Source: Acidiferrobacteraceae bacterium (GTDB taxonomy: Bacteria > Pseudomonadota > Gammaproteobacteria > Arenicellales > UBA868). Taken from it: a DNA stretch of 64,000 nt. Shown one piece after another: positions 9,078 to 20,371 of the stretch; positions within the stretch are counted from its first letter, which is position 1, and each line of letters starts with the position of its first letter. Below the pieces are notes generated by a model. The model saw only the letters and a list, made by a program, of their open reading frames with translations. It was not told the DNA's origin and did not search any database. Where the stretch lies: positions 1-64,000 of the forward strand of contig PBOB01000054.1 in the NCBI GenBank assembly GCA_002724185.1, in the 5' to 3' direction. Position numbers and translations under genes: made by a program.

Positions 9078-9548
9078 TTGAAAAAATTTTTTGGGTTGTT
9101 TTTGTTCCTTTACCTGATTTGGCTGCTGTTGTCTGGCCACTACAGCCTCTTGTTCATGGCGCTCGGATTCATTTCTTGTTTGGGCGGAGTTTTTTTGGCC
9201 CACAAAATGGGGTTAGTAGACGAAGAAGGCATACCCGCTCAATTAGTGCCAGCAATTTTTCGCTATATACCGTGGTTGTCTGGCACCATAATTCGATCAA
9301 ATATTGACGTTGCTATGAGGATTCTAAATCCTCGACTGCCAATTTCGCCAGAAGTTATAAGAGTGCCCGCCACCCAAAGGACTTCGCCTGGGAGAGTGTT
9401 GTACGCGAACTCAATTACGCTCACGCCTGGAACACTTTCGCTTGAGTTGACTAATAGCGATATAGAGGTTCATGCGCTGTCTCTTCAGGCAACGAAAGAG
9501 CTCCAGTCTGGAGACATGGGAAAGCGAGTCGCTTCTTTGGAGACCTAA
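9078..9548 (+). CDS. mrpE: Mrp-type Na+/H+ antiporter subunit E
   Basis: Small membrane subunit of the multi-subunit Mrp (Mnh/Pha) cation/proton antiporter. Two N-terminal hydrophobic segments (residues ~5-18 and 22-42) are followed by a soluble domain carrying the signature NSITLTPGTLSLEL and a later VHAL. Length is 156 residues, usual for MrpE. The start is TTG, preceded by TAAGGAAAAGAA, a good ribosome binding site. It is the first gene of an operon in which every following gene is overlapping or within a few bases. Starting with E-F-G rather than A-B-C is typical of the order seen next to archaeal membrane-bound hydrogenases. Confidence 0.93.
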   Translation: MKKFFGLFLFLYLIWLLLSGHYSLLFMALGFISCLGGVFLAHKMGLVDEEGIPAQLVPAIFRYIPWLSGTIIRSNIDVAMRILNPRLPISPEVIRVPATQRTSPGRVLYANSITLTPGTLSLELTNSDIEVHALSLQATKELQSGDMGKRVASLET

Positions 9549-9550
9549 AT

Positions 9551-9835
9551 ATGCTAATTATTGTTGTGATAGCGCTATTAATGGCCATGGCCCTCGCCTT
9601 ACTCCGAGCGATTCGTGGACCAACTGTTTATGACCGCATACTTGCAGCAAACGTGTTTAGCACGAAGACGATACTCATGATAACAACGTTCGGATTTTTC
9701 GTTGGTAGGCCAGAGCTCTATATAGATATCGCTATTATGTATGGTCTTATTGGATTTATAGGCACTGTTGCTGTTCTAAAAGTTTCTGAGTTCGGGAATC
9801 TTGGGCAGTCAGGCCCTCAATCTGGAGGGCAGTAA
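9551..9835 (+). CDS. mrpF: Mrp-type Na+/H+ antiporter subunit F
   Basis: A 94-residue protein with three hydrophobic segments (residues ~1-19, ~33-50 and ~56-77). The conserved RAIRGPTVYDRILAANV loop after the first helix is the MrpF/PhaF hallmark. It starts 2 bases after the mrpE stop. In the family the subunit is needed for complex assembly and has been linked to bile-salt or cation efflux; a separate role here is not indicated. Confidence 0.92.
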   Translation: MLIIVVIALLMAMALALLRAIRGPTVYDRILAANVFSTKTILMITTFGFFVGRPELYIDIAIMYGLIGFIGTVAVLKVSEFGNLGQSGPQSGGQ

Positions 9836-9837
9836 AA

Positions 9838-10155
9838 GTGGGCTTTGTTATCGAAGTTATTAGCGCCATGCTTCTTGTGATCGGATCAGTCGCCGTGTTA
9901 GTTAGTGGTATTGGTATTATACGAATGCCGGATGTTTTCACACGATTGCATGCGGTTGGCATAACAGATACGGTAGGCGCTGCGGCAGTTCTACTGGGGC
10001 TCTTGCTCAGATATGGATGGGACCCAGTGATGATCAAAATACTATTTCTTTTAGCGCTTCTTTTAGTCTTAAATCCGTCAGCATCACATGCTTTGGGAAG
10101 AGCGGCGGTTCATGGGGCTCGGCGACCTTGGTTAAGCGATGGTGACCAAGGGTGA
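9838..10155 (+). CDS. mrpG: Mrp-type Na+/H+ antiporter subunit G
   Basis: A 105-residue protein with three predicted membrane helices. The block GIGIIRMPDVFTRLHAVGITDT is the signature of MrpG/PhaG. The start is GTG two bases after the mrpF stop, with CTGGAGGGCAG upstream as ribosome binding site. Its stop overlaps the GTG start of the next gene (GTGA). The short polar C-terminal tail ends in an Arg/Trp-containing segment. Confidence 0.92.
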   Translation: MGFVIEVISAMLLVIGSVAVLVSGIGIIRMPDVFTRLHAVGITDTVGAAAVLLGLLLRYGWDPVMIKILFLLALLLVLNPSASHALGRAAVHGARRPWLSDGDQG

Positions 10156-10703
10156 TTGCTGAAATCATTAACGTTGTACTTTTGGGGCTCTTGGTTATTA
10201 CAGCGGTGGCGGCCATTCGTCTTCATGATCTATTTGCTGTCGTTATGGTTTTTGGGATTTATAGTTTTTTAGCAGCTACTGTTTTCGTCGTGCTTGATGC
10301 TGTCGACGTAGCTTTTACAGAGGCTGCTGTGGGGGCTGGCATCTCTACGATTCTTATGCTTGCCACAATTAGCCTCGTAGGCCGGTGGGAGCGCCGTCCC
10401 GCACATCGTCCATTCTTGCCGATATTGGTAGTAGTGGTCACGGGTGGGGCACTGGTTTATGGAACGCTGGACATGCCTAATTTTGGCGAACAAAGTACGC
10501 CAGTACATGAGCATATTGCTCCATATTATCTAGAGCAGTCCAAAAGCGACATTGGTATCCCAAATGTTGTTACTAGCGTTCTGGCGAGTTATCGTGGTTA
10601 CGATACCCTAGGCGAGTTGACAGTCATTTTTACTGCTGGGATTGGTGTACTAGGAATACTGGGAATTCGGCGCCGCAGAGAAGAGAAAAACAGTGAAGGA
10701 TAA
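10152..10703 (+). CDS. Mrp subunit A C-terminal module (DUF4040 / MbhD-MbhE-like)
   Basis: A 183-residue membrane protein equivalent to the C-terminal part of classical MrpA, which in Bacillus is fused to a NuoL-like domain. The first ~85 residues hold the DUF4040-type segment, with VAFTEAAVGAGISTILMLAT as its most conserved stretch. The C-terminal part (DTLGELTVIFTAGIGVLGIL) matches the MbhE-like tail. The NuoL-like N-terminal part of MrpA is missing from this gene, so this is a split MrpA, as in archaeal Mrp/Mbh modules. Start GTG, overlapping the mrpG stop; its end overlaps mrpB by 11 bases. Confidence 0.82.
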   Translation: MIAEIINVVLLGLLVITAVAAIRLHDLFAVVMVFGIYSFLAATVFVVLDAVDVAFTEAAVGAGISTILMLATISLVGRWERRPAHRPFLPILVVVVTGGALVYGTLDMPNFGEQSTPVHEHIAPYYLEQSKSDIGIPNVVTSVLASYRGYDTLGELTVIFTAGIGVLGILGIRRRREEKNSEG

Positions 10704-11115
10704 CCAAGTTCTTCGAGTAGTTGCGAAGATCATGATACCAGTCATTCTGCTTTTTGCTTTTTATGTTCAATTTCATGGAGATTATGGCCCAGGCGGAGGT
10801 TTTCAGGCCGGCGTGATTTTCGCGGCAGGACCCATTTTGTATGGCTTGATATTTGGTGTAGAGCGACTTCAAAGCGTGTTTACTATCGTCTCTTTGAAGA
10901 TCCTTATTGCCGCTGGGTTGTTGCTATTCGCGGGCGTGGGATTCGCTACAGTTTTTTTGGGTGGAGACTATTTAGATTATGATCAACTTAACCGAGACCC
11001 TATTTTAGGCCAACATCTTGGTATATTGTTAGTTGAGCTAGGTGTTGGTATTACCGTCGCTGCTGTTATGATAACGATTTTTATCGCTTTTGCTGGGCGC
11101 CAAAACCACCGATGA
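10693..11115 (+). CDS. mrpB: Mrp-type Na+/H+ antiporter subunit B
   Basis: A 140-residue protein with the MnhB domain. About four membrane helices are evident. The signature FHGDYGPGGGFQAGVIFA lies after the first helix, and LGQHLGILLVELGVGITV near the C-terminus. The start is GTG within the end of the preceding gene (11-base overlap). Its stop overlaps the mrpC ATG. Family members form part of the core that contacts MrpA. Confidence 0.93.
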   Translation: MKDNQVLRVVAKIMIPVILLFAFYVQFHGDYGPGGGFQAGVIFAAGPILYGLIFGVERLQSVFTIVSLKILIAAGLLLFAGVGFATVFLGGDYLDYDQLNRDPILGQHLGILLVELGVGITVAAVMITIFIAFAGRQNHR

Positions 11116-11465
11116 GCGCCCTGGGTCTCTATAATTATTGGATTGTAATTTTTTTGATGATGACCGGCTTTTATGTTGTTATTTCAAGCGGCAACCTAGT
11201 CAAAAAAATAATTGGCCTGAGTCTTTTTCAAGCTTCCGTATTCATTCTCTACATAAGTCTAGGTAAGATTTCTAATGGTGGCCCTCCCATTCTTAGAGAA
11301 GGTGTCGAGCTATATTCAAATCCATTGCCACATGTATTGATCCTGACAGCCATTGTAGTTGGTGTGTCTACTACCGCTTTAGGTTTATCTCTCGTCGTAC
11401 GAATCAAAGAATCTTATGGCGCAGTCGAAGAAGAGGAAATTCATCGGCAGGATGAGTCGCTTTGA
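11112..11465 (+). CDS. mrpC: Mrp-type Na+/H+ antiporter subunit C (NuoK-like)
   Basis: A 117-residue, three-helix protein homologous to NuoK of complex I. The DPLPHVLILTAIVVG-type motif appears as NPLPHVLILTAIVVGV, and the first helix contains GFYVVISSGNLVKKIIGL. It starts in an ATGA overlap with mrpB and ends in a TTGA overlap with mrpD. The acidic C-terminal tail (EEEEIHRQDE) is polar and probably cytoplasmic. Confidence 0.93.
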   Translation: MSALGLYNYWIVIFLMMTGFYVVISSGNLVKKIIGLSLFQASVFILYISLGKISNGGPPILREGVELYSNPLPHVLILTAIVVGVSTTALGLSLVVRIKESYGAVEEEEIHRQDESL

Positions 11466-12940
11466 TCGATAGCCAACTCTTGCTTTTGCAGGTAACTCTG
11501 CCACTAATAGCAGCTCCTATTTGCTTGTTAATTAAGAGTGGTCGCGCTTGTTGGGCTATAGCCTTTATCGTTACTATATCGTCATTTTCGCTCGCTGCAA
11601 TTGTGTTTTCCTACGTGCTTACATATGGCGTGCTTGAGTATAACTTCGGTGGTTGGGTCGCACCTTGGGGAATTTCCTACAGAGTAGACATTGTTAATGG
11701 GTTAATAGCGTTGCTGGTCTCGGCAATAACGACCATCGTGTTAGTTTTTGCTCGAACAAGTGTTTCTAACGAGATTAAAAATAAGAATCAATCAATTTTT
11801 TATACTGCTTGGCTATTGTGTCTGGCTGGCCTTCTAGGGATCACAGTCACAGGAGATGCTTTTAACCTATTTGTGTTTCTCGAGATTTCTTCTCTTGCGA
11901 GTTATGTGCTGATTGCTTTTGGTCAAGACAGGAGGGCCCTTACTGCCTCTTATCAGTATCTTGTGATGGGCACTATTGGCGCTACATTTATATTAATTGG
12001 GGTTGGCCTGCTCTATGCTATGACGGGGACGCTAAATATGGTTGACATTGCAGCTCGGTTGCCTCAGGGAGTGACAAACCGCACTGCACAAACAGCCCTG
12101 GCTTTTTTGGTGGTTGGTGTTGGCTTAAAACTAGCTTTGTTCCCTTTGCACTTATGGTTGCCTAATGCCTATACATTTGCACCGTCTGCGGTGGGCGCTT
12201 TTCTTGCTGCCACAGCCACTAAGGTTGCGATATATGTTCTTTTACGATTCCTGTTTACCGTGTTTGGTTTCAATTTTTCGTTTGAGGAAATGCCCCTTGA
12301 TCTTATTTTTGTCACGCTTGGGATAGTGGCAGTCATTTCAGCATCAGCTGTGGCGATTTTTCAAGATAATGTTAAAAGAATGTTTGCATACTCGAGTGTA
12401 GCTCAGATTGGCTATATGATTATTGGATTGGGTTTGTCATCAAAAGCTGGCCTCACCGCATCGATACTGCATCTTTTCAATCATGCTTGGATAAAGGGTG
12501 GGATATTTTTAGCACTTGGTTGCGTGGCTTATAAGTTAGGGAGCGTAAGGTTGGGGGCCCTCGCAGGTGCAGGCTATCGTATGCCCTGGACTATGGCTGC
12601 TTTTCTATTAGCTGGGCTCAGCCTCATCGGTGTGCCACTTACAGCAGGCTTTATTAGCAAGTGGTACTTGTTTGAAGCGGCAATTGAAAAAGACTGGTGG
12701 CTCATGCTCATCGTAATAGTTATGGGATCGTTGCTATCGTTAATTTACGTATGGCGGGTAATTGAGATGGCTTATCTGAGGCGCCCAGATCATGAGGAAG
12801 AAAAATCAGAAGCGCCTCTATCCTTGTTGCTCCCAACGTGGGTGCTTGTTTTTGCAAGTTTCTACTTTGGTTTAGACACTCGTCTCAGCGTAGGAGTTGC
12901 ACATAAAGCAGCGGAAACACTGATCGGGTATTCACCATGA
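11462..12940 (+). CDS. mrpD: Mrp-type Na+/H+ antiporter subunit D (proton-conducting, first copy)
   Basis: A 492-residue polytopic protein of the NuoL/M/N antiporter-like family. The helix FNLFVFLEISSLASYVL carries the conserved membrane Glu. GLKLALFPLHLWLPNAY carries the conserved Lys and the broken-helix motif. A second Lys is in ATATKVAIYVL. These residues form the proton path in the family and all are present. Start TTG in a TTGA overlap with mrpC. It is the best match to canonical MrpD among the three antiporter-like genes here, judging by the PNAYTFAPSAVGAFLA stretch and its place right after C. Confidence 0.93.
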   Translation: MIDSQLLLLQVTLPLIAAPICLLIKSGRACWAIAFIVTISSFSLAAIVFSYVLTYGVLEYNFGGWVAPWGISYRVDIVNGLIALLVSAITTIVLVFARTSVSNEIKNKNQSIFYTAWLLCLAGLLGITVTGDAFNLFVFLEISSLASYVLIAFGQDRRALTASYQYLVMGTIGATFILIGVGLLYAMTGTLNMVDIAARLPQGVTNRTAQTALAFLVVGVGLKLALFPLHLWLPNAYTFAPSAVGAFLAATATKVAIYVLLRFLFTVFGFNFSFEEMPLDLIFVTLGIVAVISASAVAIFQDNVKRMFAYSSVAQIGYMIIGLGLSSKAGLTASILHLFNHAWIKGGIFLALGCVAYKLGSVRLGALAGAGYRMPWTMAAFLLAGLSLIGVPLTAGFISKWYLFEAAIEKDWWLMLIVIVMGSLLSLIYVWRVIEMAYLRRPDHEEEKSEAPLSLLLPTWVLVFASFYFGLDTRLSVGVAHKAAETLIGYSP

Positions 12941-14385
12941 TCTCCTTGCTCTTCATCCTTTTGGTTCCGCTTGCAACAGCGCTCGCGGTTAGTCGACTAA
13001 CAGCATGGCCAAATGTCAGAGAAGCTATAAGCCTTTTGTCGGGGGGGTTTTTGTTTGCTCTAGTGTTGTCCTTGATACCTTCGGTTCTTGATGGCAGTCA
13101 GCCGAGCTATACGATCGCAGAGCCCATTGCAGGCTTACCAATTCAGCTTCGAGCAGAGCCTCTAGGTGTTATTTTTAGCGCTACTGCCAGCTTTCTTTGG
13201 TTGGTGACGACACTCTATTCAATAGGATATATGAGGAGCCACGGAGCCTCCAACCAGAGCCGATTCTATGCATTTTTTGCGGTTGCAATCACAAGCACTA
13301 TGGGGGTCGCTTTTTCAGCAAATCTCTTCACGCTATTTTTGTTCTATGAGCTATTAACATTTTCAACTTATCCATTGGTGACTCACACTGGAACCGTTGC
13401 AGCGAGAAAGGCAGGACGCACCTATCTGAGTATCCTCTTGACAACATCGATGGCTTTCTTTTTGGTCGCTATCGTCTGGACATGGAATTTATCAGGGACG
13501 GGAGACTTCAAAATTGGGGGCATACTGGAGGACAACGCAACACCATTTACAATTGGCCTTTTGTATGCTCTTTTTGTGTTCGGTATTGGCAAAGCGGCTC
13601 TAATGCCATTTCATCGGTGGTTGCCAGCCGCTATGGTTGCACCTACCCCCGTGAGCGCGTTGCTGCATGCAGTGGCTGTCGTAAAAGCAGGCGTATTCGC
13701 AATTTTAAAAATAACAATCTACATTTTTGGGTTGGATTTAATTGGTGAAACAGGCATGTCAACCTGGCTGCTGTGGGTTGCATCAGCAACCATAGTAATA
13801 GCGTCTCTTATTGCTTTGCAGCAAGATAATTTAAAGAGGAGATTGGCGTATTCGACAGTGAGCCAACTTTCATACATTGTTATGGGTGCTATTCTCGCAA
13901 ACAGCAACGCCATACTTGGCGCAACAATGCATATAACCATGCATGCTGTTGGTAAGATCACACTGTTCTTCTGCGCAGGCGCAATTCTTGTTGCCTCGCA
14001 TAAAACTCGAGTTAGCGAGATGGACGGGTTGGGACGCAGGATGCCGTTTACTATGGCAGCTTTTTTTGTTGGTGCTATCAGTGTTGCAGGCTTGCCGCCC
14101 TTGGGCGGTTTCTGGGGGAAATGGCACTTGGCGTTGGGGTCTCTTGACGCGGGTTACAGCATTCTAGTAGCGGTACTGATGGTGAGTACTTTGCTAAATA
14201 TAGCCTATCTGATTCCGATACCGTTGAGAGCGTTTTTCTTTAAGGGGCCGTCTCAGGAATACTGCGGCATTAAGGAGGCTCCGGTCGCGTGTCTATTGGC
14301 AATGGGTATAACGGCTTTTTGTAGTCTAGTGCTGTTTTTTTACCCAGAACCACTCTACCAGTTGGTGATTGAAATTGTAAATTGA
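12937..14385 (+). CDS. Second antiporter-like subunit (MrpA/NuoL-like flavour)
   Basis: A 482-residue membrane protein of the proton-conducting transporter family. The conserved Glu is in FTLFLFYELLTFSTYPLV and the conserved Lys in GIGKAALMPFHRWLPAAM. The following VAPTPVSALLHAVAVVKAG resembles the MrpA/NuoL version of the motif rather than MrpD, so this subunit may stand in for the missing NuoL-like half of MrpA. That is inference from motif flavour only. It begins in an ATGA overlap with mrpD and ends in a TTGA overlap with the next small gene. Confidence 0.85.
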   Translation: MISLLFILLVPLATALAVSRLTAWPNVREAISLLSGGFLFALVLSLIPSVLDGSQPSYTIAEPIAGLPIQLRAEPLGVIFSATASFLWLVTTLYSIGYMRSHGASNQSRFYAFFAVAITSTMGVAFSANLFTLFLFYELLTFSTYPLVTHTGTVAARKAGRTYLSILLTTSMAFFLVAIVWTWNLSGTGDFKIGGILEDNATPFTIGLLYALFVFGIGKAALMPFHRWLPAAMVAPTPVSALLHAVAVVKAGVFAILKITIYIFGLDLIGETGMSTWLLWVASATIVIASLIALQQDNLKRRLAYSTVSQLSYIVMGAILANSNAILGATMHITMHAVGKITLFFCAGAILVASHKTRVSEMDGLGRRMPFTMAAFFVGAISVAGLPPLGGFWGKWHLALGSLDAGYSILVAVLMVSTLLNIAYLIPIPLRAFFFKGPSQEYCGIKEAPVACLLAMGITAFCSLVLFFYPEPLYQLVIEIVN

Positions 14386-14645
14386 ATAGCACCATGCCAG
14401 AGAAAAACCATTTTTTTGATAACAAACAGAATGTCCGTCTAATTATGTGGCTTCTTGTAGCTATATGTTTTGTTCTTGTTATTATCGATTTGATTGTTCA
14501 TAGGCATGTTGTTCATCCTATAGAAGCCCTTTGGTCTTTCTACGCTTGGTTTGGCTTTATATCCTGTGTTTTTCTAGTGCTGGTGTCAAAGTTATTGCGA
14601 AAAATCCTTATGCGAAGAGAGGATTATTATGATGCCAATGACTGA
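14382..14645 (+). CDS. Small two-helix membrane protein of the Mrp operon
   Basis: An 87-residue protein, unrecognised. It has two strongly hydrophobic segments (residues ~20-38 and ~49-69) linked by a short HRHVVHPIEALWS loop, a Lys/Arg-rich end after helix 2, and an acidic DYYDAND tail. Start TTG in a TTGA overlap with the preceding antiporter-like gene; the end overlaps the next antiporter-like gene by 17 bases. Tight translational coupling on both sides argues it is a real subunit or assembly factor of the same complex. An ATG five codons downstream is an alternative start. Confidence 0.7.
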   Translation: MNSTMPEKNHFFDNKQNVRLIMWLLVAICFVLVIIDLIVHRHVVHPIEALWSFYAWFGFISCVFLVLVSKLLRKILMRREDYYDAND

Positions 14646-16323
14646 TTTGCCGCCCTTCCTGATTTTCTATATTGCGGCTATTTTGGTTATGCTGTTGCCC
14701 AATCGATTAGGCCAGTTAGTATCTCTTACAGCACCCGTGCTGGGTGGGCTACTGCTTTATTTCTTAGCCGATACTGCAGGACAGTGGCATATTGCGGAAG
14801 TTGTTTTGGAGCCGGTAAGAGTTGACGATCTGAGTCGCTTGTTTGGCTACCTTTTCCATATCGCAGCTTTTATTGGAGTTCTTTTTTCAATTCATTTGCG
14901 AGATCGGCTTCAAGCAACTACAAGCCTTTTGTATGCCGGCAGTGCTATCGGGGCGGTTTTTGCCGGCGATTTATTGACCCTGTTTTTTTTCTGGGAACTA
15001 ATGGCTCTGAGTTCTATGTTTCTGATTCTGGCACGAAGAACAGAACGGGCCTATCGAGCGGGTATGCGCTATTTCTTAATCCAGGCGGTCTCGGGAGTGT
15101 TGCTTTTGCTGGGCACTTTAATTATCTATGCGCAGACAGGGTCGCTTGCTTTCGATCACATTGAGCTCACTAGTTTAGCCAGTTTGCTAATTTTTGTAGC
15201 TTTTGGAATCAAGTGCGCCTTCCCGCTTTTCCACAATTGGCTGACGGACTCTTATCCAGAGTCTACCCCTACAGGCGCTGTCTTCTTAAGTGCTTTTACG
15301 ACGAAGGTTGCAGTGTATGCGCTCGCTCGCGGTTTCGCTGGAACAGAAGCGCTTGTATATATCGGCGCTGTGATGACTTGTTTTCCTATTTTTTATGCGG
15401 TTATAGAGAATGACCTTCGACGGGTGTTGGCATATAGCATGATAAATCAAATAGGATTCATGGTCGTTGGTATAGGGCTTGGCACTGCCTTGGCTATAAA
15501 TGGAGCAATTGCTCACGCGTTCAACGATGTCATCTTTAAAGGATTACTGATGATGTCGATGGGTGCGGTATTATTTCGAACAGGTCGAATGAATGGATCA
15601 GATCTAGGTGGTTTGTATAAGAGCATGCCGGTTACTACTTCCCTTTGCATCATAGGCGCGGCATCGATCTCAGCGTTTCCATTATTTAGTGGGTTTGTTA
15701 GTAAGGCCATGGTAATGTCAGCGGTGTTAGATGAAGGGCACGAATTTGTTTGGTTAGCTTTGCTCTTTGCATCGGCTGGGGTATTCCATCACGCAGGGAT
15801 CAAAATTCCATTTTTTGCTTTTTTTGGCCACGACGCAGGTATTCGTACCTCAGAGCCGCCAGTAAATATGTTACTAGCGATGGTGATTGCTGCTATTCTT
15901 TGTGTCTTGATTGGCGTCTATCCATGGTTGCTTTATGATTTATTGCCGTTCAGCGTTGACTACAACCCATTTGATCGTTCACATGTGCTTGCACAGCTTC
16001 AGCTACTCATGTTTTCTGCTGCGGCCTTTGCTTGGCTTAAGTTTGCCCGCATCTATCCACCCGAGCTTAGGTCGACCAATATCGATGTAGAATGGCTTTA
16101 TAGAAAGTTTTTACCCGGATTATCGAGTTACTGTGGCGGTTTGCTGTCAAGTGGCAGCCGCGGTACTTCAGCCGCATTAAGAGCAGGGAATAAAGCAATT
16201 ATGAAGGTTATTTTCAGGCACTATGGGCCTCATGGCACTTTGGCTCGAACATGGCCAACCGGTAGCATGGTTTTGTGGGTAGCCATTATTCTCGCTGCGA
16301 GCTTATTACTTTATTATTTCTGA
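14629..16323 (+). CDS. Third antiporter-like subunit (MrpD/NuoN-like)
   Basis: A 564-residue polytopic protein, longer than the two preceding paralogues because of a C-terminal region of ~100 residues that ends in one more hydrophobic helix. The family Glu is in LTLFFFWELMALSSMFL. The family Lys is in FGIKCAFPLFHNWLTDSYP, and a second Lys in SAFTTKVAVYALARG. NDLRRVLAYSMINQIGFM is the other conserved block. The ATG at 14629 is preceded by AGAGAGGATT; in-frame ATGs at 14632 and 14638 also exist. It is the last antiporter-like gene of the operon, and all proton-path residues I can check are retained. Confidence 0.88.
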   Translation: MMPMTDLPPFLIFYIAAILVMLLPNRLGQLVSLTAPVLGGLLLYFLADTAGQWHIAEVVLEPVRVDDLSRLFGYLFHIAAFIGVLFSIHLRDRLQATTSLLYAGSAIGAVFAGDLLTLFFFWELMALSSMFLILARRTERAYRAGMRYFLIQAVSGVLLLLGTLIIYAQTGSLAFDHIELTSLASLLIFVAFGIKCAFPLFHNWLTDSYPESTPTGAVFLSAFTTKVAVYALARGFAGTEALVYIGAVMTCFPIFYAVIENDLRRVLAYSMINQIGFMVVGIGLGTALAINGAIAHAFNDVIFKGLLMMSMGAVLFRTGRMNGSDLGGLYKSMPVTTSLCIIGAASISAFPLFSGFVSKAMVMSAVLDEGHEFVWLALLFASAGVFHHAGIKIPFFAFFGHDAGIRTSEPPVNMLLAMVIAAILCVLIGVYPWLLYDLLPFSVDYNPFDRSHVLAQLQLLMFSAAAFAWLKFARIYPPELRSTNIDVEWLYRKFLPGLSSYCGGLLSSGSRGTSAALRAGNKAIMKVIFRHYGPHGTLARTWPTGSMVLWVAIILAASLLLYYF

Positions 16324-16663: not shown

Positions 16664-17191
16664 CTAACGAGCCTCAAGCAAACGGGGCATTAACTCTACA
16701 AGGTTGCACGGTTTGGTCCTGTAATCGAGCTGGAACTGAAGAATTTTATCCCATGCGGTGGCGCAGGCACCTGATGACCCAGGCAGGCAGAATATATAGG
16801 TACCATTAGTTACCCCAGCGAGGGCTCGAGAGTTAAGCGCCGAAGTTCCAATTTCCTCATAGGAGAGTGATCTAAATATTTCCCCGAAACCATCAAGCTT
16901 TTTCCCCAGAAGGGGTTCGACAGCTTCCGGGGTTCCATCAAAACCAGTGACACCAGTTCCACCAGTCATAATTACCACTTGAATGTTTTCATTGGCAATC
17001 CATGTGCTCGCAGTATTTCGGATCTGAGTGACGTCATCCTTTACGATACAGCGGTCAGCCAGCGTGTGCCCGGCAGAGATTAGGCGGTTTGCCAGAAGAT
17101 CTCCAGACTTATCATTATCGGCTGTTCTGGAATCAGAAACAGTAAGCACTGCAATATGGACGGGGATAAAATCACGACGTTGATCAGACAT
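16664..17191 (-). CDS. moaB: Molybdenum cofactor biosynthesis protein MoaB
   Basis: MoaB/Mog-type molybdopterin adenylyltransferase-fold protein. The signature VIMTGGTGVTGFDGTPEAV lies mid-protein, followed by GFGEIFRSLSYEEIG and the C-terminal FCLPGSSGACATAWDKIL. Length is 175 residues, typical of MoaB (170 in E. coli). No other Mog-type gene is visible in the window, so it may carry the adenylyltransferase step alone. Divergent from moaD across 89 bases. Confidence 0.94.
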   Translation of the reverse strand: MSDQRRDFIPVHIAVLTVSDSRTADNDKSGDLLANRLISAGHTLADRCIVKDDVTQIRNTASTWIANENIQVVIMTGGTGVTGFDGTPEAVEPLLGKKLDGFGEIFRSLSYEEIGTSALNSRALAGVTNGTYIFCLPGSSGACATAWDKILQFQLDYRTKPCNLVELMPRLLEAR

Positions 17192-17280
17192 GCTACCTAC
17201 CTTTAGCTATCGCTTAATTAATAAACATCCATTATAGTTCGACTTTCCCAATATTATGCGAAGTGAGGCTGCACTTTCAC

Positions 17281-17511
17281 ATGGCGATTAAAGTCCGATT
17301 TTTCGCAAGTCTTCGAGAGCAGACCGGCATCTCTAGAAAGCAGATTGCAGCGGATGGGCTAGAGACGGTCAGTGATCTCTGGTTAGCCGTTACTGAGGCG
17401 CCCCTAGATGAAACGACACTAGTGGCTGTCAACAAGACTTATGTTGGGCCAGATTATCAGATTACAGACGGTGATGAAGTGGCCTTTTTCCCGCCTATTA
17501 CGGGTGGTTAA
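17281..17511 (+). CDS. moaD: Molybdopterin synthase small subunit MoaD
   Basis: Ubiquitin-like sulfur carrier of molybdopterin synthase. The C-terminal Gly-Gly (VAFFPPITGG) that becomes the thiocarboxylate is intact. Using the ATG at 17281 gives 76 residues beginning MAIKVRFFASLREQTG, matching the family start. A GTG at 17263 would add six residues without homology. It is followed one base after its stop by moaE, its catalytic partner. Confidence 0.94.
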   Translation: MAIKVRFFASLREQTGISRKQIAADGLETVSDLWLAVTEAPLDETTLVAVNKTYVGPDYQITDGDEVAFFPPITGG

Positions 17512-17512
17512 T

Positions 17513-17959
17513 ATGATTCCTGTGCGGATCGAGCTTCGCAAAACGGGCTTCGACGGTTTCGCGGAGGTTCAAGAATATCGAAAAAGTATTCCAGCTGTAT
17601 CAGATTATGGGGCATGCTCAAACTTCGTTGGTACAATGAGAGAGTATAACCAAGGCGATCAAGTCGTCTCGATGTATTTGGAACATTATTCAGGAATGAC
17701 TGAAGAGCAGCTTGAGGCTATAGTTGGTAAGGCGCAAAATGATTATGAAGTCTTGGCGGCGCTGCTATTGCACCGGATTGGAGAGGTTCAGCCCGGCGAA
17801 GATATTGTAGCCATAGCCGTTTGGTCAACACACAGAAAGGATGCTTTCGCAGCGTGTCGGGACATAATGGAGGCATTGAAAAGCACAGCTCCTTTTTGGA
17901 AAAAGGAGCAACTTCAAAACGAGGATCGCTGGGTTAAAAATAATTCCCCTGGCCAATAG
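17513..17959 (+). CDS. moaE: Molybdopterin synthase catalytic subunit MoaE
   Basis: Catalytic subunit that receives sulfur from MoaD to make the dithiolene of molybdopterin. The ATG at 17513, just after moaD, gives 148 residues (150 in E. coli); a longer frame opens further upstream inside moaD but is not homologous. Landmarks are CSNFVGTMREYN, MYLEHYSGM, HRIGEVQPGEDIVAIAV and the Lys-containing STAPFWKKEQ end that provides active-site lysines. Confidence 0.95.
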   Translation: MIPVRIELRKTGFDGFAEVQEYRKSIPAVSDYGACSNFVGTMREYNQGDQVVSMYLEHYSGMTEEQLEAIVGKAQNDYEVLAALLLHRIGEVQPGEDIVAIAVWSTHRKDAFAACRDIMEALKSTAPFWKKEQLQNEDRWVKNNSPGQ

Positions 17960-18048
17960 TCACCCCTAAAATCAGACAGTTAATAGTTCACCTAATGGGA
18001 TACTTGGGTAACATTTCGAGCTGAGAGCTCAAAACGAGAGATCTTATC

Positions 18049-18615
18049 CTATTTAGGAGCTTGGGCTATGATGTACGAATATGGTTGCTGGGAATCAACT
18101 CCATCGTCATAAGCTGTTATTTGCAAACCTTCGAAAGCCTCAGCGAGCTCTCCAGGACGAAGTAAATATTCTTTCGCAAATCCTGGTGTTTTCTCCAAGT
18201 GATTTTGGTTGAATGTTTTATAGACCACTCGTCCCCCAGGATTTAACGCCCACTTAATCATAGGAAATAATCTGCGATTCAGGTATCGAAAACATGTAAT
18301 TAGATTAAAAGTTGATTTTGGGAGGAGGTAATCATCAAGATCAATTACCAGACCCTGAACAAATACACCACTTTTTATTGCAAGATGTTGACCGATCTTT
18401 AAAGCGGTTAGGCTACAGTCAAGTGCAATGACACTATAGCCTGATCTTGCTAAGTGGATAGATGTTCCGCAGGTTCCAGCCGCGAGATCAATGGCCAGAC
18501 CAGTACCGTTTAGCAGATGCTTGTGGCTGACTAGCAGCGGGTCTGCATCTTGCTGAACAGACAGTTCTGATTTTGTACTATATTTTTTCTCCCAACGTTC
18601 GATGTCAGAGCGCAT
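18049..18615 (-). CDS. Class I SAM-dependent methyltransferase, TehB-like
   Basis: A 188-residue Rossmann-fold methyltransferase. Motif I is AIDLAAGTCGTSIHLARSGY (residues ~37-56), followed by VIALDCSLTAL as the acidic motif II. A short segment LITCFRYLNRRLF replaces the usual post-II region. The substrate is unknown. It starts 6 bases after the moeA stop and is therefore probably co-transcribed with moaC-moeA. That does not by itself give a role in cofactor synthesis; other small methyltransferases of this type act in detoxification or small-molecule modification. Confidence 0.75.
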   Translation of the reverse strand: MRSDIERWEKKYSTKSELSVQQDADPLLVSHKHLLNGTGLAIDLAAGTCGTSIHLARSGYSVIALDCSLTALKIGQHLAIKSGVFVQGLVIDLDDYLLPKSTFNLITCFRYLNRRLFPMIKWALNPGGRVVYKTFNQNHLEKTPGFAKEYLLRPGELAEAFEGLQITAYDDGVDSQQPYSYIIAQAPK

Positions 18616-18621
18616 CCCGAG

Positions 18622-19884
18622 TTACAGTAGGCTCGCAAACGGCTCAACAGTAACAATGTCGCCAACATCTGCACCTTTACTTTCTAGGGGTAAAACGATA
18701 AAACAGTTTGCTCTCGACATAGAAGTCAGTATGCCAGAACCCTGCTCTCCTGTTGTTTTAACGATAAGCTGTCCATCGCGATCTAACGATAGCACTCCTC
18801 GTTGGAACTCGGCCCGACCTGGTTTCTTCCTAAGCTTGTCCGCCACCTTAGCAGAACAGCGAAATCCTGAGATATTTTTCTCTCCAGAAAGTCTTCTTAA
18901 AGCTGGTAGAACAAATTGGTAGAAAGTTACCATCACCGAAACAGGGTTTCCTGGCAATCCAAAAAGAATGGCCGAGCCAATTTGTCCCACCGCCAAGGGT
19001 CGCCCGGGCTTCATGGCAATTTTCCAGAATCTGACCTCACCAAGTTCTTGAAGAATGTTATGTACATAGTCAGCTTCACCGACAGATGCCCCCGCCGAAG
19101 TGATAACAAGGTCAGCGATCTTTGATGCCTTTGCGAAGGTCTCTTTTAGGCGAGCAGGATCGTCGGGCACCAGTCCGAGATCGACAAGCTCCACTCCCGC
19201 CTGAGTTAACATCCCATATAGCGTGTGGCGGTTGGAGTCATATACTTCACCATGTTCTAATTGCTCAGTAATGGGCCGAAGTTCATCCCCGTTTGAGAAA
19301 AACGCTACTGTTGGTTTTTTGTATACTGGTAATTCACTTACTCCGAGCGAGGCTGCTATACCCAATTCTGCGGGCGATATTCGGGTTCCGGCTAATAAGG
19401 CAACTTCGCCGTTAGCTAGATCCTCACCAGCATAGCGAACATGTTGCCCCTTTTTTTGACCATGTGCTACTCGAACTGTATCGCCGTTGCGTTCTGTGTG
19501 TTCCTGCATAACGACCGTATCGCTATTGTCCGGCATAATCGCCCCAGTCATAATTCGAACACATTCTCCTGGGTTCATTATTCCCTCAAATCTTTTTCCA
19601 GCCCAGGCTGTTCCGATTGAAGTAAGGGAGGAACGCGACAAATCATCAAACCGAATGGCGTATCCATCCATCGCCGAATTGTTGTGATTTGGAACATTTG
19701 TTGGTGACAAGATATCTCGCGATAATACCCTACCCAAGGTTTCACGCAAAGGAACAACCTCGTCATTTTCGCATGGAGAAACCATGTCGGCAATTTGTTC
19801 AAGCGCTCCCTCGACTGACATTAGGGTAGAATCGAAAATGTCTTCGCAGCTCGGGTCGATATTAATGTCGGTACCCTTACTCAT
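18622..19884 (-). CDS. moeA: Molybdopterin molybdenumtransferase MoeA
   Basis: Inserts molybdate into adenylylated molybdopterin. Domain landmarks are the [14 protein letters not shown] segment near residue 70, [10 protein letters not shown]-like [27 protein letters not shown] and [14 protein letters not shown]. The ATG at 19884 gives 420 residues and overlaps the moaC stop (ATGAGTAA), which suggests translational coupling. An upstream ATG at 19917 would add 11 residues and deepen the overlap. GGAG lies just before the chosen ATG, and a further GGAG lies upstream. Confidence 0.93.
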
Positions 19885-20371
19885 CGCTCCTTTTCCAAGC
19901 TCCTGATTGGCCACCATCTTTTTCTAGTAACATAACAGATTTAATAACCATGCCTCGATCTGCTTTCTTGCACATGTCGTAAATCGTGAGCAACGCTACT
20001 TGCGTTGCCATCAATGCTTCCATTTCTACACCTGTACGGTCACGAGTCTCTACAGTTGTTTCGCATAGCACTGAATTCTGGTTTTCGTCTAACAGTAAAC
20101 GGATCTCTACATGAGTTATCGGTATAGGATGACAAAGTGGTACTAATTCAGCAGTCTTTTTGGCAGCCATGATGCCCGCTATACGCGCGACTGCAAGCAC
20201 ATCGCCCTTTTTATGTGCTCCTGATTGTATAAGTCGCAAAGTCTCTTGGGCCATCGTAATTTGACCTTGAGCGACAGCTACTCTGGCGGTTATATCCTTA
20301 TTGCCCACATCAACCATGCGAGCGTTGCCCTCACTGTCGAAGTGAGTAATATTCTTGTTGGTTGTATTCAT
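19877..20371 (-). CDS. moaC: Cyclic pyranopterin monophosphate synthase MoaC
   Basis: Second enzyme of molybdopterin synthesis, acting after MoaA to form cyclic pyranopterin monophosphate. The opening [18 protein letters not shown], the central [16 protein letters not shown], and [19 protein letters not shown] are conserved. Active-site KKADRG follows. Length 164 residues, normal. It is the first gene of a moaC-moeA-methyltransferase run. moaA is not in the window. Confidence 0.95.

Follow-up and report, generated by a model that had tools for sequence, protein, structure and literature searches.

A predicted Group 3 Mrp antiporter operon with three antiporter-like subunits and a conserved small membrane protein

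Introduction

What kind of complex is encoded by an mrp operon that carries three large antiporter-like genes, an additional small one and only the C-terminal module of MrpA, and would all three large subunits conduct protons? The question is raised by a locus in the 64,000-nucleotide stretch of gammaproteobacterial DNA analyzed here (the window), for which an earlier note, made from the letters of the sequence, had described a split MrpA and a gene order of archaeal type. According to a study of the Pyrococcus Mrp, what follows from the operon differences among Mrp groups is not well studied (PMC8415708).

Results and Discussion

A ten-gene operon with an MBH-like order

Ten tightly packed ORFs, all on the + strand and each adjacent to its neighbor or overlapping it by a few bases, occupy positions 9078-16323 of the window in the order E-F-G-A′-B-C-D1-D2-S-D3, where S is an 87-aa ORF; all ten were found where the earlier note had placed them. 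Pfam and NCBIfam name nine of the ten genes, S being the exception, with Pfam E-values across the operon ranging from 9e-11 to 2e-63. The first gene, mrpE (9078..9548), begins with a TTG start codon and matches MNHE (3.9e-29). It is followed by mrpF (9551..9835; MrpF_PhaF, 2.9e-15), with its conserved Asp in the motif GPTxxDR, and by mrpG (9838..10155), which matches PhaG_MnhG_YufB (4.3e-22) and scores above the cut-off of TIGR01300. Next comes A′ (10152..10703), a stand-alone homolog of the MrpA C-terminal module (MbhD plus MbhE, or "DUF4040"; Pfam MbhD 2e-17, MbhE 9e-11), which reaches 208 bits against the NCBIfam model PRK12504 (cut-off 141). The domains in its 183 aa are those of the part of MrpA beyond the NuoL-like half, and that half is not fused to A′, as had been proposed. 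The acidic motif DTLGE of A′, the mrpF Asp and the mrpG His are all kept. Two further core genes, mrpB (10693..11115; MnhB 2.7e-29, and PRK12508 above its cut-off) and the NuoK-like mrpC (11112..11465; Oxidored_q2 1.2e-20), precede the antiporter-like genes. Proton_antipo_M is matched three times in the operon, by the MrpD-type D1 (11462..12940; 1.7e-63), by D2 (12937..14385; 6.4e-55) and by D3 (14629..16323), the last of which also scores 698 bits against the NCBIfam model PRK12668 (cut-off 564); S (14382..14645) lies between D2 and D3. The comparison of the E-F-G-A′-B-C-D order with MBH is borne out by these Pfam and NCBIfam domains.

An Rfam search of the operon returned no match, scans of it for promoters and terminators gave no more sites than shuffled sequences did, and no near-identical plasmid copies of it were found. 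Downstream, the ORFs at 16664-20371 resemble by eye moaB, moaD, moaE, moeA and moaC, genes for the molybdopterin cofactor that are unrelated to the antiporter.

The operon belongs to the Group 3 Mrp systems

By the earlier note's own account, a full-length mrpA elsewhere in the genome would speak against its reading. We searched the source genome (2.69 Mb in 96 contigs, 92.9% complete) and obtained a single MbhD/DUF4040 match in the Pfam domain search, together with seven Proton_antipo_M matches, namely D1, D2, D3 and two NuoL/NuoM pairs on contigs C15 and C61. The top match of the MrpA model is itself a NuoL, at 273 bits against a cut-off of 920. With a lone MbhD and a NuoL as the best match of the MrpA model, we therefore found no full-length mrpA outside the operon as far as this assembly shows, and since the assembly is fragmented and not fully complete, the absence is strong rather than absolute. 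As a separate observation, the two NuoL/NuoM pairs of this genome bin (G000) differ from each other, and they represent either two complex I operons or contamination, estimated at 4.1%.

A full-length MrpA, with its NuoL-like half fused to the MbhD/E module, characterizes Group 1 and Group 2 Mrp and was not found here. Those complexes (Bacillus, Dietzia, Vibrio) have homologs of E, F, G, C and D and key residues in common with the operon in the window, but their full-length MrpA is one of two pumps and their gene order begins with A. Group 3 Mrp has been described as comprising clusters with an irregular gene order (PMC5703873) and as having mrpD, at times in several copies, without mrpA (PMC8415708). 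The operon brings together homologs of mrpE, F, G, B, C and D, as judged from its ORFs and from Pfam and NCBIfam; its order is irregular, with several mrpD-like genes, and no full-length mrpA accompanies it in the 92.9%-complete genome. On its sequence it is a Group 3 Mrp (CPA3), that is, a predicted cation/proton antiporter.

The operon type is already described and widespread rather than exotic. The clusters MrpEFGBCD1D2D3 of Verruconatronum (PMC13274419) and MrpEFGBBCDD of the Solemya velum symbiont (PMC4287430), and the extra mrpA/mrpD-like genes beside the group 3 Mrp of Ca. Nitrospira alkalitolerans (PMC7784846), resemble it, by reported gene content, in their MBH-like order and several mrpD-like genes; set against the descriptions in the available parts of these three papers, our operon shows no substantial difference, and those parts hold no discussion that we could find of S or of a D3 clamp. 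Plasmid clusters of a haloarchaeon and of Peptoclostridium have the same E-F-G-A′-B-C-D1-D2-D3 order and a D2 that groups with that of the window, with S not annotated between D2 and D3; in Peptoclostridium, unlike in the window, A′ is split into MbhD and MbhE. The membrane module of the Pyrococcus MBH (MbhA-H) shares the E-F-G-A′-B-C-D order but combines one MrpD-type antiporter-like subunit with a hydrogenase, whereas the window encodes three such subunits, and no hydrogenase or sulfane reductase module was recognized among its ORFs on inspection by eye.

The ten-gene block recurs across phyla

The earlier note had set the archaeal-type order against the standard bacterial one and had proposed a comparison of the operon across genomes. 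This comparison gave no support to the order as an archaeal-type oddity in bacteria: many Pseudomonadota have the exact ten-gene block, and it occurs in other phyla too. We read the order E-F-G-A′-B-C-D1-D2-S-D3 from the genomes of about 25 relatives in the same order and phylum, in several of which A′ and B are fused. Using D3 to scan the GTDB species genomes, we obtained at least 587 relatives, the closest among the matches listed being an Arenicellales MAG at 73% identity, a hint at the host group but no proof of it. When the best 80 of these at least 587 loci were fetched, all 80 kept D2-S-D3, with S between the two large genes, and the remaining block as well wherever the contig reached far enough. 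The titles among these 80 include Arenicellales, Shewanella, Neptuniibacter, Alteromonas, Gemmatimonadota, Nitrospira, Latescibacteria, Verrucomicrobia and Planctomycetaceae, among others. Because the gene order recurs in all 80 loci from other genomes, contig ends permitting, it is not due to chance. Of 143 gammaproteobacterial genomes sampled evenly, 29 had a D3 above the curated cut-off.

Two variants deserve mention. Five loci of the same phylum (L092-L096) hold Group 3-like clusters in which E-F-G-A′-C precedes other antiporter-like genes that are more divergent, and S was not detected in them. One contig (C244 of genome G467) carries two D3 and two S genes together, a possible tandem duplication of the unit.

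D2 and D3 form clades of their own

We placed the three large subunits in a maximum-likelihood tree of 78 sequences of the antiporter-like family, in which the deep branches between clades have weak support. D1 joins the MrpD proteins of Group 1/2 complexes, with a support of 81/96 that does not reach the level starred by the tool. D2 (100/100) and D3 (100/99) each form a clade apart, that of D3 leaving outside the Peptoclostridium D3, which sits on a long branch. MrpA and NuoL group together (100/99), with the D2 and D3 clades outside this group, and haloarchaeal and rhizobial complex I proteins fall into both the D2 and the D3 clades. By their sequences, then, D2 and D3 would each represent a distinct lineage of the family, found in bacteria and archaea alike. 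The proposal that all three subunits belong to the antiporter family holds, as each matches Proton_antipo_M and the tree places none outside. That of a split MrpA holds in part: A′ does match the MbhD/MbhE part of MrpA, but neither D2 nor D3 groups with MrpA or NuoL. As the tree sets D2 and D3 apart, the NuoL-like half of MrpA would have no direct ortholog here. The idea of D2 or D3 as the detached N-terminal half of MrpA finds no support in the tree, although D2 has the MrpA-type His-Lys pair on TM8, and an origin of D2 and D3 as recent copies of MrpD is rejected by it.

Channel residues and the C-terminus of D3

We aligned the three subunits to E. coli NuoL, taking E144, K229 and K399 as reference positions. 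The corresponding residues are E141, K223 and K400 in D1, E138, K219 and K395 in D2, and E123, K195 and K359 in D3, in agreement with the earlier note, which had seen the membrane Glu and Lys in all three. A Lys on TM8 is also present in each, so that every one of the three has Glu-TM5, Lys-TM7, Lys-TM8 and Lys-TM12. D2 has in addition a His on TM8 (H244), as MrpA does, and a His and Lys pair on this helix has been described for MrpA in the Mrp structure paper (PMC7419157). At the three NuoL positions, Glu, Lys and Lys are found throughout the D1 and D2 proteins compared; among the 16 D3 proteins compared, that of the window included, Glu-TM5 and Lys-TM12 are invariant, and Lys-TM7 is present in 13 and replaced by Asn in three, among them a rhizobial (Sinorhizobium, L180) and a haloarchaeal one (L181). 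On account of these three, D3 may not conduct in all members of the family.

In an AlphaFold2 model of D3 built from 47 sequences (mean pLDDT 88.6), TM15 (450-472) is followed by a long helix (488-532) and TM16 (539-563), and structure comparison matches the fold with the MrpA chain of Mrp and the NuoL chain of complex I. As modeled, the C-terminus of D3 is thus of the NuoL/MrpA type (TM15 - long helix - TM16). The equivalent helix (HL) in MrpA and complex I braces the row of pumps (PMC7419157), and a longer HL has been tied to extra pumps (PMC9040806). We measured the linker between TM15 and TM16, both placed by hydropathy, and compared medians because the outlying MrpA and NuoL values are suspect (four MrpA values, 73-75, fall at the limit of the searched span and probably reflect TM17, and three NuoL values are 120-164). 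The median is 49 residues in MrpA (n = 19), which spans one inner pump, and 86 in NuoL (n = 17), which spans two. D3, at 74 residues (n = 111), would be better suited to two inner pumps (D2 and D1) than to one, with the caution that its linker is shorter than that of NuoL, although both would bridge two pumps.

These observations bear on whether D3 is a pump at all. In the same Group 3 Mrp, protons could be conducted by D1 and D2, or by D1 alone, with D3 and S capping the row as structural parts and the D3 helix holding it together. The Asn found in place of Lys-TM7 in rhizobial and haloarchaeal D3 proteins would fit such an arrangement, as would the location of the modeled clamping helix in D3; the D3 of the window, however, keeps all four residues of the proton path and the D3 sequence is strongly conserved, and we consider the arrangement unlikely.

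S and the D2-S-D3 unit

S is a conserved membrane protein without a family name in the databases searched: by sequence it gave matches at chance level in Pfam, NCBIfam and the PDB. Its predicted structure consists of two helices of membrane-spanning length (15-38 and 53-76), and its C-terminal part carries a strongly conserved motif, K-x-x-R-K-x-L-M-R-x-E-D-Y-Y-D. In the sample of 143 genomes, S adjoins D3 in every one of the 29 that have D3 (Fisher p about 2e-29 for co-occurrence, relatedness ignored). S occurs in one more of them (G393), about 430 bases from the start of a contig and beside two antiporter-like genes.

The same unit is found in another setting. On plasmids of Sinorhizobium, Phyllobacterium and Ensifer we read the order J-K-D2-S-D3-M-N-A-B-C-D, with S annotated as hypothetical, so that a homologous D2-S-D3, in the same order as in the window, takes the place of NuoL between K and M. 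The "green" complex I of rhizobia is reported to have two MrpD-like subunits in NuoL's place (PMC9040806, citing Degli Esposti and Martinez Romero, 2016), and we found no mention of S in the available portion of that account. There the unit lies inside a nuo operon that also encodes NuoM, NuoN and the redox arm, and the D3 linker is longer (92 residues, n = 1), whereas in the window the neighbors of D2 and D3 are mrp genes. Since it replaces NuoL inside the operon of a complex, D2-S-D3 was probably built to dock.

D2 and D3 might instead form a separate transporter, outside the Mrp complex and merely co-transcribed with a one-pump Mrp core, as the behavior of D2-S-D3 as a unit, present in rhizobial complex I without E-F-G, could suggest; given that it adjoins E-F-G-A′-B-C-D1 in every fetched locus whose contig reached far enough, we regard this as very improbable. 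Equally remote is the idea of a redox-driven pump (MBH/MBS or complex I-like) that has its membrane arm encoded here and its soluble module elsewhere. The MBH-like order, the A′ domains and the occurrence of D2-S-D3 in a true complex I operon would fit it, but against it stand D1 grouping with MrpD, the location of the genome's NuoL/NuoM genes on other contigs and an inspection by eye of the large ORFs in the 64-kb window, in which no hydrogenase or Nuo catalytic gene was recognized.

A proposed three-channel antiporter

We think it probable that the operon encodes a Group 3 Mrp antiporter in which D1, D2 and D3 form a row outward from C with three proton paths, D3 clamping the row and S joining its D2/D3 part. 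By analogy with MBH and Mrp, E, F, G, A′, B, C and D1 would make up the cation module and its junction. D1, D2 and D3 would be stacked outward from C, each with proton half-channels, and protons would enter through three antiporter-like subunits instead of the two of an ordinary Mrp, driving Na+ (or another monovalent cation) out through the E/F/G/A′/B/C side; cation, direction and ratio are taken from the family, by analogy with solved Mrp complexes. D3 would be outermost, its long C-terminal helix clamping the row as in NuoL and MrpA, and S, with its two helices, would be a small subunit belonging to the D2/D3 part. Three conducting channels would suit the residues conserved in the subunits, the resemblance of D3 to NuoL in its C-terminus and linker length, and the use of D2-S-D3 in rhizobial complex I. 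In the literature searched we came across neither a structure nor an activity for an Mrp with three D subunits, and the subunits could also form alternative complexes instead of one.

More tentatively, and with the balance tipped slightly against it, D2-S-D3 might be an exchangeable "double pump" module with S as an obligate small subunit. On an Mrp core it would yield an antiporter with three channels and a raised H+ to Na+ ratio, in place of NuoL in complex I a four-pump enzyme, and S would be an unrecognized subunit of both.

Having three D subunits could raise the coupling from 2 to 3 H+ per turnover, which would be useful at high pH or high Na+; alternatively, D3 may be mainly structural. 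The operon type being known and common, the points worth retaining are S, a conserved protein without a name, and the indirect indications of a three-pump row. S is a concrete, testable part of the system. Mrp, MBH and complex I differ in the number of stacked antiporter-like subunits, and with a natural three-channel Mrp the question, open for complex I, of whether each added subunit adds a proton to the cycle could be addressed in a system free of redox chemistry.
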